Assembly (NCBI RefSeq): GCF_000154285.1
Contig: NZ_DS483478.1
Span: forward strand, 1-64,000
Direction: 5' to 3'
Source of the DNA: Amedibacillus dolichus DSM 3991
GTDB taxonomy: Bacteria > Bacillota_I > Bacilli_A > Erysipelotrichales > Erysipelotrichaceae
Length of the DNA stretch: 64,000 bases
Shown here: piece by piece, positions 21,662-28,417 of the stretch
Layout: the number at the start of each line of letters is the position of its first letter
Position numbering within the stretch: position 1 is the first letter of the stretch
Notes under the pieces: generated by a model
What the model was told of the DNA's origin: nothing
The model's input: only the letters and a program-made list of their open reading frames with translations
The model's database searches: none
Translations under genes and position numbers: made by a program

Positions 21662-23617
21662 TTAGCTTACCTTTGTACCATTCGGCAAATCCTTTGCAAT
21701 GCTGACAATATCCAAATCTGTATCATTGCTAGCACATAGGATCATACCTTGGCTCTCTACTCCACGAAGCTTTACCGGTTTTAAATTTGATACAACAACA
21801 ACCTTTTTACCGACAACTTCCTCCGGTTTAAAAGTAGAGGCAATACCGCTGACAATCTGGCGAACCTCATCACCCAAATCAATTTGCTCTACCAACAAGC
21901 GATCTGCTTTCGGGTGCTTTTCCGCTGAAAGAATCGTACCAACCTTCAATTCTACTTTTGTAAAATCTTCGATAGTAATTTCTTCTTTTCCTTTTTCCTT
22001 TGTAACTTCCTTTTGAGCGGCTTGCTTAGCTTCCTTCTGTTTATCTGCCTCTAAGGTTTCCATAAATTCCTTAGGGTCGATACGTTGGAATAAAATACTT
22101 GGTTTAGCTTCTACCGTATGACCGCATTCCAACTGTCCGAAGCTTTCAAGACTCGCCTTATCTCGACGACTTGTGCTTAGCTGATCTAAGATCTTTTCAC
22201 TTGTTTCCGGCATAAAGCTTTCTAATAAGACAGCCGCATAACGAATGCTCTCCAATAGATTATATAAAACCGTTGCTAAGCGATCCTTCTTAGTCTCGTC
22301 CTTACCAAGCGTCCAAGGGGTTGTTTCATCAATATACTTATTGCAGCGCTTCAACAGCGTAAAGATTTCATCAATGGCTTCTCCAACACGCAGCTGATCC
22401 ATCTTTTCATCAACATTATGTACTGTCGCAACTGCTAATTCAATAAGCTCTGCATCAAGTGGATCTCCCTCCATCGGATTGGAAATTACCCCATGGAAAT
22501 ATTTGTTCTGCATAGAAATGGTACGATTCACCAAGTTACCCAACACATTTGCCAAATCGGAATTCACACGCTCTACCATCAAATCCCAAGTAATCGTACC
22601 ATCTTGAGCAAATGGCATTTCATGCAGTACAAAATAACGAACCGCATCAACACCGAAATAATGCACCAACTCATCTGCATAAATTGCATTGCCTTTAGAT
22701 TTTGACATCTTGCCATCACCGACAAGCAGCCATGGGTGTCCGAATACCTGCTTTGGCAGTGGTTCTCCAAGTGCCATTAACATGATCGGCCAATAAATCG
22801 TATGGAACCGTAGGATATCCTTACCGATGATATGTACATCTGCCGGCCAATATTTCTTATAATTCTCACCATGATTGCCATCAACATCAAAGCCTAAGGA
22901 AGTAATATAGTTACTTAAAGCATCAATCCAAACATAAACTACATGATCCGGATCGAAATCAACCGGTATTCCCCATTTAAAAGAGGTTCTGGATACACAA
23001 AGATCTTGTAATCCCGGCTTCAAAAAATTATTGATCATTTCATTTTTGCGTGATTCCGGTTGAATAAATTCCGGGTGAGTTTCAATATGCTCAATCAAGC
23101 GTGGCGAATATTTCTGTAAATTAAAGAAATAAGCCTCCTCGGTTGCTTTTTTTACCGGCCGTCCGCAATCCGGACATTTCCCATCTACTAACTGACTTTC
23201 CGTCCAAAAAGATTCACACGGCGTACAATACATTCCCTCATACGTACTCTTATAAATATCCCCCTGCTCATACAGCTTCTTAAAGATTTTCTGTACCTGC
23301 TTTTCATGATAATCATCGGTTGTACGTACAAAATAATCATAGCTTGTGTTCATCATATCGAAGTTTTTACGTACGATACCGGCAATATTATCCACAAATT
23401 CCTTTGGAGTAATACCCGCCTCTTTTGCCTTTTCTTCGATTTTCTGTCCATGTTCATCAGTACCTGTTTGAAAAAATACATCATAGCCCTGCTGTCGCTT
23501 ATAGCGTGCAATCGCATCGGTCAAAACGATTTCGTATGTATTTCCGATATGCGGACGTCCTGATGTATAAGCGATTGCTGTTGTAATGTAATACTTGCCT
23601 TTGCAGTTGTTGCACAT
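21662..23617 (-). CDS. metG: Methionyl-tRNA synthetase
   Basis: 651 residues. Class I synthetase with the HIGH-type motif PHIGN, zinc-knuckle cysteines (CTPC and CPDC), KMSKS in GDGKMSKSKGN and WIDALSNY, then the anticodon-binding helical domain. A Lys-rich linker leads to a C-terminal tRNA-binding/dimer domain (VELKVGTILSAEKHPKADRL...SNLKPVKLRGVESQGM). ATG 23617 with GAGGAGG 10 nt upstream is chosen over a TTG reading. Regulated by the Met T-box immediately upstream. Confidence 0.97.
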   Translation of the reverse strand: MCNNCKGKYYITTAIAYTSGRPHIGNTYEIVLTDAIARYKRQQGYDVFFQTGTDEHGQKIEEKAKEAGITPKEFVDNIAGIVRKNFDMMNTSYDYFVRTTDDYHEKQVQKIFKKLYEQGDIYKSTYEGMYCTPCESFWTESQLVDGKCPDCGRPVKKATEEAYFFNLQKYSPRLIEHIETHPEFIQPESRKNEMINNFLKPGLQDLCVSRTSFKWGIPVDFDPDHVVYVWIDALSNYITSLGFDVDGNHGENYKKYWPADVHIIGKDILRFHTIYWPIMLMALGEPLPKQVFGHPWLLVGDGKMSKSKGNAIYADELVHYFGVDAVRYFVLHEMPFAQDGTITWDLMVERVNSDLANVLGNLVNRTISMQNKYFHGVISNPMEGDPLDAELIELAVATVHNVDEKMDQLRVGEAIDEIFTLLKRCNKYIDETTPWTLGKDETKKDRLATVLYNLLESIRYAAVLLESFMPETSEKILDQLSTSRRDKASLESFGQLECGHTVEAKPSILFQRIDPKEFMETLEADKQKEAKQAAQKEVTKEKGKEEITIEDFTKVELKVGTILSAEKHPKADRLLVEQIDLGDEVRQIVSGIASTFKPEEVVGKKVVVVSNLKPVKLRGVESQGMILCASNDTDLDIVSIAKDLPNGTKVS

Positions 23618-23639
23618 AATATACAAACCTCCTCAAAAT

Positions 23640-23865
23640 ATAAAAAGCTTCCGCCAAAGGACGAAAGCTCGTGTTACCACCTTTATTCACATGCCAAGCA
23701 TGCCTCAAATCGTTAACGCCGATCTACGTCTTTTTCTAACTATTCGAAAAAGCAGTTCCAGGTCCATCTTCCTTTCCCCTCTGTGATGAGCTTTCAGCAG
23801 CCGCTCACTCTCTTTGACATCAGAACGGAATATACTCTTCCTGTCTTTACCTTATGAACGTATCC
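23640..23865 (-). promoter_or_regulatory. T-box leader of metG (Met specifier)
   Basis: On the minus strand a leader of about 225 bases contains AGAGAGTGAGCGG (stem I base), GAAG-ATG-GACC with ATG at 23767-23765 as probable specifier, and the T-box core GGTGGTAACACG at 23681-23670. A terminator follows (GAGCTTTCG...CGGAAGCTTTTT) right before the RBS. Uncharged tRNA-Met would stabilise the antiterminator and switch metG on. Confidence 0.9.
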
Positions 23866-26633: not shown

Positions 26634-26757
26634 CTTCGCAAAGAATGGTTCCTATGCTTTTTTAATAGCTGCCCCTATCTGTAAATATATGATTTTTGAT
26701 AATCCAACCAACTTAGTGCTTGTTTTTTGTTTCCTACTTATGTTATAAATAATAAGA

Positions 26758-26857
26758 ACTGGTTTTACTAACCTCCCAGTATAATAATAGGTCATGACAA
26801 ATTACACTAGCAACACCTTTTCGTCATACTTATTGGGATAAGTATGATTTTTTTATG
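26758..26857 (+). promoter_or_regulatory. Probable preQ1-I riboswitch with downstream terminator
   Basis: 26758-26791: stem ACTGG (26758-26762) / CCAGT (26776-26780), a 13-base loop ending CTAACCTC, and an A-rich tail ATAATAATAGG. The tail AGG(T) can pair with ACCT in the loop, giving the H-type pseudoknot of preQ1-I aptamers; the layout follows the known short aptamers closely. A terminator (CATACTTA/TAAGTATG plus seven T) sits at 26827-26857, just before the RBS. It controls the hydrolase/ECF pair below. Confidence 0.7.
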
Positions 26858-26870
26858 GAGGAATAGCACT

Positions 26871-27869
26871 ATGAACAATACAACCAAAAGAAAGGTCATC
26901 ATTGACTGTGATCCCGGTATTGATGACAGCTTAGCCATCATGCTTGCACTTTCTTGCGAAGAAATCGAAGTCATCGGTATCACTATCGTCTGTGGCAATG
27001 CTCCGGTGGAAATGGGATTTGAAAATGCAAAAAAAGTATTAAAGCACATGAATCGCTTGGATATCCCCATTTATATCGGTGCCGATAAGCCCTTAAGCAA
27101 AACGTATATAAATGCCTTAGATACACACGGCGCTGATGGATTGGGAGAAAGCTTTTTGGATAATGTTGAGGGGTATCGTCAAGATGATGATGCTATTACC
27201 TTTTTATCCAAAGCATTACAAAAGGATATATGCTCAATCATTGCGATTGGACCATTAACCAATTTGGCCTTGCTTATCAAAACAAACGAGGAAGCTTTTA
27301 ACCATATCGATCAGCTTGTTTCCATGGGAGGCAATTACCGTTCGCATGGCAACTGTTCTCCGGTTGCGGAATACAATTATTGGGAAGATCCCGATGCGGC
27401 GGCAATCGTTTATGAACAGATGCGAAAAATACATAAGCAGATTCACATGGTCGGCTTAGATGTAACACGAAAGATCGTCCTTACTCCTAATTTATTGGCT
27501 TATCTGGAAAGACTGGATTCTGTGCATGGTTCGTTTATCCGCAAAATCACGGATTTCTATTTCACATTTCATTGGGAATGGGAACATATCATCGGCTGTG
27601 TTATCAACGATCCCCTTGCTGTTGCTTATTTTCTTAAACCGGAATTATGCTCGGGTATAACAGCCTCCTTGGAGATTGCCACTGACGGTATCGCCAGAGG
27701 CCAAAGCATTGTCGATGCATACGATTTTTATAAGAAAGAAGCCAATGCCGTTGTTCTTAATCAGGTCGATGTTGAAGGATTTTTTACCCTCTTTTATTCT
27801 AAGCTTTTAAACAAAGCACCACAGGAATTGGATTTGTTGAAGCATCTCATAAGCGAGGAAACAGTATGA
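26871..27869 (+). CDS. queK: Nucleoside hydrolase (IUNH family), probable queuosine hydrolase QueK
   Basis: 332 residues. The calcium-binding N-terminus is IIDCDPGIDDSLAI; VSMGGNY, EYNYWEDPDAA and NDPLAVAYFL are the other family motifs. IUNH enzymes cleave the N-glycosidic bond of ribonucleosides. The preQ1-I-like leader and the ECF S component overlapping its stop (ATGA) match the queuosine-salvage pair QueK-QrtT described in Clostridioides difficile, where QueK frees queuine from queuosine. The substrate is inferred from context; a general inosine/uridine hydrolase is the alternative. ATG 26871 has GGAGGAA 9 nt upstream. Confidence 0.8.
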   Translation: MNNTTKRKVIIDCDPGIDDSLAIMLALSCEEIEVIGITIVCGNAPVEMGFENAKKVLKHMNRLDIPIYIGADKPLSKTYINALDTHGADGLGESFLDNVEGYRQDDDAITFLSKALQKDICSIIAIGPLTNLALLIKTNEEAFNHIDQLVSMGGNYRSHGNCSPVAEYNYWEDPDAAAIVYEQMRKIHKQIHMVGLDVTRKIVLTPNLLAYLERLDSVHGSFIRKITDFYFTFHWEWEHIIGCVINDPLAVAYFLKPELCSGITASLEIATDGIARGQSIVDAYDFYKKEANAVVLNQVDVEGFFTLFYSKLLNKAPQELDLLKHLISEETV

Positions 27870-28417
27870 AAAAAGGAATCAGTACCCAACAGCTTGCTTT
27901 TTTAGCATTTGCAGCTGTCATAAATATTATCGGCGGATATATTGCATTGTTTTTGCATCTTCCCATTTATTTGGACAGCATCGGAACAATTCTGATTTCC
28001 GCTGTTCTCGGTCCTATATATGGCATGGTTCCAAGTCTTTTAAGCAATTTGGTTTTAGGAATGATGGGTGATGTCTATGCCTTTTATTATCTTCCTGTCG
28101 GTATGCTGCTTGGAGCATTGAATGGGTGGCTGTGGAATAAGCCTACATTAAAAAAAGGCGGCAGATTACTTTTGGCTTTGATCATCACCCTGCCAACCTC
28201 CTTACTAAGTGCCTGCATTACTGCCAAGCTATTCGGCGGCATTACCTCATCAGGATCAACCGTACTTGTGCAGCTGCTCGCAAAAACACCACTTGGATTA
28301 ACGATGAGCTGTTTTCTTGTGCAATTGCTCACCGATTGTATCGACCGTTTTCTAAGCATTGCTTTGGTTCAAACAATCCTCAAAAAACTGCCACAGAAAA
28401 TGCACAAGCTCTTTTAG
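27866..28417 (+). CDS. ECF transporter S component, probable queuosine/queuine uptake (QrtT-like)
   Basis: 183 residues with about five or six hydrophobic spans (e.g. AFLAFAAVINIIGGYIALFLHL; YLDSIGTILISAVLGPIYGMVPSLLSNLV), the size and density of ECF substrate-binding subunits. The ATG overlaps the hydrolase stop by 4 bases. No ATPase or T subunit is near, so it presumably uses shared EcfAAT. Substrate inferred from the preQ1-I-like leader and the coupled hydrolase. Confidence 0.75.
   Translation: MKKGISTQQLAFLAFAAVINIIGGYIALFLHLPIYLDSIGTILISAVLGPIYGMVPSLLSNLVLGMMGDVYAFYYLPVGMLLGALNGWLWNKPTLKKGGRLLLALIITLPTSLLSACITAKLFGGITSSGSTVLVQLLAKTPLGLTMSCFLVQLLTDCIDRFLSIALVQTILKKLPQKMHKLF

Follow-up and report, generated by a model that had tools for sequence, protein, structure and literature searches.

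What does the small RNA element upstream of a nucleoside hydrolase gene and an ECF S-component gene sense in Amedibacillus dolichus DSM 3991, and what do the two genes salvage? The locus lies within a 64,000-nucleotide stretch of contig NZ_DS483478.1 that was analysed as a whole (hereinafter, the window). The initial annotation proposed that the pair is controlled by a preQ1-I-like pseudoknot sensing a queuosine precursor. We find a real, conserved riboswitch-controlled salvage operon and consider it probable that a divergent preQ1-I-type switch exerts feedback control on the salvage of queuosine or queuine, with queuine as the likeliest ligand. The relevant features are listed in Table 1.

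Table 1. Features of the salvage operon and the divergent Tgt gene (window coordinates unless a locus is named)
Feature	Position	Strand	Remarks
Probable promoter	26720-26749	+	TTGTTT 26720-26725; extended -10 TGtTATAAA (TATAAA 26744-26749); consensus match only
Aptamer, H-type pseudoknot, 35 nt	26758-26792	+	kept across 24 distinct leaders, with pairing counts and covariation
P1, 5 bp	ACUGG 26758-26762 / CCAGU 26776-26780	+	
P2	core 26772-26774/26789-26791; outer A-U pair 26771/26792	+	
Specificity-type C; A/U-rich L3	26775; 26781-26788	+	
Antiterminator	26786-26834	+	26786-26798 (with P2 strand AGGU) pairs with 26823-26834; 12 bp, one bulge
Intrinsic terminator	26823-26854	+	stem 26823-26833/26838-26848, U tract 26848-26854; -10.1 kcal/mol
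IUNH-family nucleoside hydrolase, 332 aa	26871-27869	+	PF01156 E 1.4e-85, 288 bits
ECF transporter S component, 183 aa	27866-28417	+	nearest NCBIfam CD3073
Divergent Tgt	L104 2382-3599 (G000:C1 near 224881-226098)	-	GGAFLK pocket

The element at 26758-26792 reads ACUGG-UUUUACUAA-CCU-C-CCAGU-AUAAUAAU-AGGU on the forward strand, with P2 written as its CCU/AGG core. The 5-bp stem, the ACCT loop end and the AGGT tail end are as initially described: the loop closes with A-CCU-C (26771-26775), and the tail AUAAUAAU is followed by AGGU at 26789-26792. The aptamer lies 78 nt upstream of the hydrolase ATG, and the extended -10 ends 8 nt before it, placing the predicted transcription start just 5' of the aptamer; a TATAAT-like hexamer (at least 5 of 6 positions) is found 3-20 nt upstream in 21 of 28 homologous leaders.

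The S component, used as a query across 196 genomes of the family, has homologues in 57 of these, and about 30 homologous loci were read out, including those of Traorella massiliensis and Longicatena caecimuris among the named relatives. In close relatives, the hydrolase (about 62-74% identical) is located directly 5' of the S component, and the motif is found in every close relative with upstream sequence; it is absent from the more distant homologous loci L030 and L032-L034. Altogether, 26 of 192 genomes, all Erysipelotrichaceae relatives, carry the motif 5' of the orthologous pair. The 24 distinct homologous leaders retain ACYGGU...CYCCCRGURUAA...UAGG between variable flanks, a conservation far from chance. 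P1 is paired in 100% of cells across these leaders, including a double change from U-A to C-G; the P2 core CCU/AGG is paired in 24/24, once as U-G, and 8 of the 24 sequences have A-U or G-C as the outer pair. Pairing drops from 93% to 46% or less if either partner strand is slid by one column. The proposed pseudoknot is thus borne out by a P1 and a P2 core that are paired in all leaders and by double changes in both helices. The window aptamer matches the covariance model R2, in which the window sequence is itself included, with 59.9 bits (E 3.5e-12), and strong R2 matches across the class are confined to the Erysipelotrichaceae family. Weak matches of 22-27 bits outside the family were dismissed as chance; the 27-bit match in genome G006 lacks the CCUCCC core. 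A second copy of the motif is present 5' of a truncated, decayed S-component gene at locus L151 (G159:C34 31818-31863, minus strand).

The relationship of this motif to the known preQ1-I class (RF00522, gathering cut-off 39 bits) is that of a divergent homolog. The Rfam preQ1-I search of the aptamer region that the initial annotation had proposed as a check yielded no match to the window motif, either at the gathering cut-off or at E<=10; no motif homologue gave an above-threshold preQ1 match, and RF00522 scored above the cut-off in 0 of 192 family genomes. The best score among the motif relatives, 26.3 bits, is that of locus L002, in which the loop UUC-CAAACCUC is near-identical to the consensus UUCGuAAaCcUC and two tail positions are deleted just 5' of the conserved UA. 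Type I is defined by a UU that follows the 5' strand of P1 and a UC that precedes its 3' strand (PMC11625349), with U6, U7, U16, C17, A30 and C31 as determinants (PMC8752633). In the variant motif, the first U and the UC are invariant, the second U is present in 23/24 sequences, and the conserved A in MAUAGG is the probable counterpart of A30; the beta-site cytosine, C31, is missing in 23/24 and present only in G114 (L031). Because L002 combines a sub-threshold score with a near-identical loop, the motif is a divergent preQ1-I subtype without the type-I beta-site cytosine. Scoring below the cut-off, it is not filed as a member of RF00522; it is nonetheless a preQ1-I homologue that probably functions in a similar way. 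The claim of a queuosine-precursor sensor accordingly stands for a preQ1-I-like riboswitch, but, given the missing RF00522 match, as a divergent variant the ligand of which need not be preQ1. A near-canonical preQ1-I element (38.7 bits; L102 1253-1299) is located between the orthologous hydrolase and S component in genome G014.

With type I (RF00522; Can structure), the variant shares the H-type pseudoknot, the 5-bp P1, the A-rich L3, the UU and UC features and, in L002, the loop. It differs in having AUAAUMAUAGG where type I has the L3/tail AUAAAAAACUAAGG, and in its L1 of variable length, its CCU/AGG P2 core and the loss of C31. Type III (E. coli yhhQ) resembles the variant in its pyrimidine-rich loop, in P2 formation with an AGG-containing 3' tail and in the control of a QPTR-family gene, which the variant precedes in some genomes. 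However, ahead of the P1 3' strand the variant has UC where type III has AC; it is associated with transcription attenuation rather than Shine-Dalgarno sequestration, and is not proteobacterial.

Riboswitch control of the pair, as initially proposed, is supported; the expression platform, a terminator with a competing antiterminator, had been overlooked. Downstream of the aptamer, 28/28 hydrolase-adjacent motif leaders and both leaders of genes for a queuosine-precursor transporter (QPTR, PF02592) contain a hairpin and a U tract, and in all of these the AGG tail is able to pair instead with the 5' arm of the terminator. Terminators of -9.7 kcal/mol or lower are found in 27/28 real leaders compared with 2.9% of dinucleotide shuffles. 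In the window, the antiterminator duplex reaches -12.0 kcal/mol vs -5.7 for shuffles (1/200), and the antiterminator beats most shuffles in most loci; it is marginal in L008, L011, L026, L028 and one QPTR leader, and no better than shuffles in L019, L022, L024 and L031. A generic terminator scan did not pick up the AT-rich terminator at 26823-26854, and the single-structure minimum free energy fold of the leader is uninformative (z -0.69), which is to be expected of a pseudoknot with alternative folds. This architecture implies an OFF-type transcription attenuator, in which premature termination would depend on the ligand, as it does in the B. subtilis queC switch (PMC11625349).

The initial reading of an IUNH-type hydrolase overlapped by an ECF S component is confirmed, with the hydrolase start refined to the ATG at 26871, preceded by GGAGG at 26857-26861; translational coupling is evident from the 4-nt overlap (ATGA) of the hydrolase stop with the S-component ATG at 27866. 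The hydrolase is a genuine IUNH member, with a fold like that of E. coli pyrimidine hydrolases (Foldseek E 1.8e-27). The His of the HDP motif is the leaving-group acid in characterised IUNHs; in all motif-linked copies, this motif reads NDP. The S component scores 96 bits against NCBIfam CD3073, far under the cut-off of 180, with no match to PF06177 and only E 0.28 to PF12822. Its AlphaFold model (pLDDT 86) suggests, on weak statistics, an ECF S fold: the Foldseek probability to RibU, ThiT, FolT and BioY S components is 1.00, but E is at least 0.016. ECF T components are encoded elsewhere in the window genome. The operons that contain the nearest outgroup hydrolases with NDP comprise several hydrolases and also encode a LacI-type regulator, EcfT, EcfA and an S component, and no Rfam riboswitch match was found at the operons of the nearest outgroup hydrolases and S components. 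A general nucleoside-salvage system is therefore the probable ancestor of the pair, which would then have been co-opted for queuosine. Two clusters of this kind, L146 and L147, include two or three nucleoside hydrolases, the first with NDP rather than HDP, along with the LacI-type regulator, S component, EcfT and EcfA (and, in L147, a ribokinase-like gene), and appear to be dedicated nucleoside ECF systems.

The Tgt proteins of the family fall into two score classes, one canonical, at about 490-567 bits, and one divergent, at about 300-355 bits, and 25 of the 26 motif genomes encode a divergent tgt, in one case as a fragment; no tgt was detected in the motif genome G058. All 26 lack queA (Fisher p 2.8e-14, with the caveat that the genomes are related and the co-occurrence counts, therefore, are not independent). 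The 26 likewise have no queH or queG, and neither QueH nor QueG turned up in any of the 27 pair-bearing genomes tested; QueH is present in 10/10 canonical-tgt control genomes. The tgt-only state is known as the 'Aq' queuine-salvage genotype (PMC6593275), and the motif genomes with a detected tgt have this composition, queA and queG/queH being absent. For the window genome, the initial annotation noted that tgt was not in the window and suggested direct use of queuine; tgt is found elsewhere in the same genome, and the absence of queA, queH and queG fits a route in which preQ1 is not matured.

Among 45 divergent-tgt genomes, 17 encode only QPTR, 11 (including the window genome) only the pair, 15 both and 2 neither, so that one or both systems are present in 43. 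The motif also occurs 5' of the QPTR gene in G058 and G134, where it forms a tandem at the same locus, with QPTR and the hydrolase each preceded by a copy (L105 3629-3677, minus strand; L106 1380-1428, plus strand). Genus g51 encodes a QPTR-Tgt fusion near the pair, with an opposite-strand gene in between; such fusions are already known (PMC11130926). The divergent Tgt has the pocket sequence GGAFLK, compared with GGTSVG in canonical relatives and GGLAVG in Z. mobilis (a comparison sequence taken mostly from an alignment), along with a replacement of C158 by Leu and an insertion of about 22 aa after SLGS. Every tgt-only relative examined has these features, whether or not it carries the riboswitch. 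The published queuine signature of Tgt, GG[LS][AS]G (PMC11570991), is absent; GGAFLK is found in every divergent Tgt examined.

Under the explanation that we favour, the S component, together with a shared ECF energising module, would import queuosine and/or queuine, the hydrolase, a predicted queuosine (Q nucleoside) hydrolase, would release queuine, and the divergent Tgt would insert this base straight into tRNA, given that there is no QueA, QueG or QueH to mature preQ1. With sufficient ligand, the pseudoknot would be stabilised and AGG held in P2, breaking the antiterminator so that the terminator forms and the operon is turned off. The analysis shows the motif with its pairing, the architecture of the attenuator, the gene content and the co-occurrence; from these we infer queuine, rather than preQ1 or queuosine, as the ligand, and likewise the substrates of transport, hydrolysis and Tgt. 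Queuine is favoured in that the route from preQ1 to queuosine needs QueA, the hydrolase would yield a free base, and product feedback is usual. A crystal structure of preQ1-I in which a substituent on the exocyclic amine of preQ1 points to solvent, with reduced affinity (PMC8494917), makes the N-substituted queuine sterically plausible. We put the probability of queuine at about one half and that of preQ1 roughly between one fifth and one quarter. Some observations run against our reading: GGAFLK misses the queuine signature, and Leu occupies position 158; the nearest outgroup hydrolases and S components reside in general nucleoside operons; and G014, also tgt-only, keeps its near-canonical preQ1-I, so that the loss of queA alone does not force the variant.

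The alternative that fares best, although we deem it unlikely, is a drifted preQ1-I that still senses preQ1, with preQ1 salvaged and inserted by Tgt unmatured, as is reported for Bartonella (PMC11570991). Apart from this precedent, the kinship with type I and the retention of alpha-site-type residues (the U after P1 and the UC before the P1 3' strand) speak for it; however, QueA, QueH and QueG are all absent, the Tgt pocket is unlike that of preQ1 enzymes, the type-I beta-site C is missing except in G114, and a nucleoside hydrolase would be superfluous for preQ1. Still less probable, in our estimate, is general nucleoside salvage, whereby guanine or another purine is sensed and the two proteins take up and cleave ordinary nucleosides. 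The outgroup homologues beside LacI regulators, a ribokinase-like gene, 2-3 hydrolases and EcfT/EcfA fit this scenario, as does a hydrolase fold nearest to pyrimidine/purine hydrolases, but the same switch is found on QPTR genes, the motif is restricted to tgt-only genomes and homologous to preQ1-I, and no dedicated EcfAT or tandem hydrolases lie beside the pair in the loci examined. That the switch senses the queuosine nucleoside, which, from the pair and the queA-negative setting, would be the hydrolase substrate, is very improbable given that the pocket of preQ1-I pairs with the face of the free base and recognises its minor-groove edge at close range (PMC8752633), which leaves hardly any space for ribose, and that feedback is more commonly exerted by the product base.

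Among known salvage systems, two come closest to this operon. The C. difficile queK-qrtT-queL operon likewise combines an IUNH hydrolase and an ECF S component with a preQ1-I-like switch in queuosine salvage (PMC11477304); the likeness is by gene family, and the window pair differs in the lack of an adjacent queL, the variant aptamer and the tgt-only genomes. Chlamydia-type direct queuine salvage (tgt and QPTR) shares tgt without queA, queG or queH and direct use of the base, and QPTR, sometimes fused to Tgt, is used by many relatives. In contrast, the Tgt pocket is different, and the window genome has, instead of QPTR, the predicted queuosine/queuine importer and the hydrolase, under riboswitch control.

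These are gut bacteria without the rest of the queuosine pathway, so the switch may sense queuine itself and, if so, would perhaps be the first natural sensor of this finished, vitamin-like base; the phrase 'queuine riboswitch' was not found in the literature searched, the coverage of which was partial. Only tentatively, at somewhat less than even chances, do we propose that the motif is a fourth preQ1-I subtype with specificity shifted from preQ1 to queuine, and thus the first queuine riboswitch, accompanied by a new type of Tgt pocket. An aptamer telling queuine from preQ1 would show a specificity change in a very small RNA pocket and would supply a queuine biosensor; it would also reveal regulation of queuine uptake in gut bacteria that scavenge this micronutrient. 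The analysis further exposes a tgt-only clade, the Tgt of which misfits the published rule for queuine use. Elsewhere in the window, a T-box leader (RF00230, 112 bits) is located at 23654-23856 on the minus strand, 5' of a methionyl-tRNA synthetase-like gene (21662-23626, minus strand).
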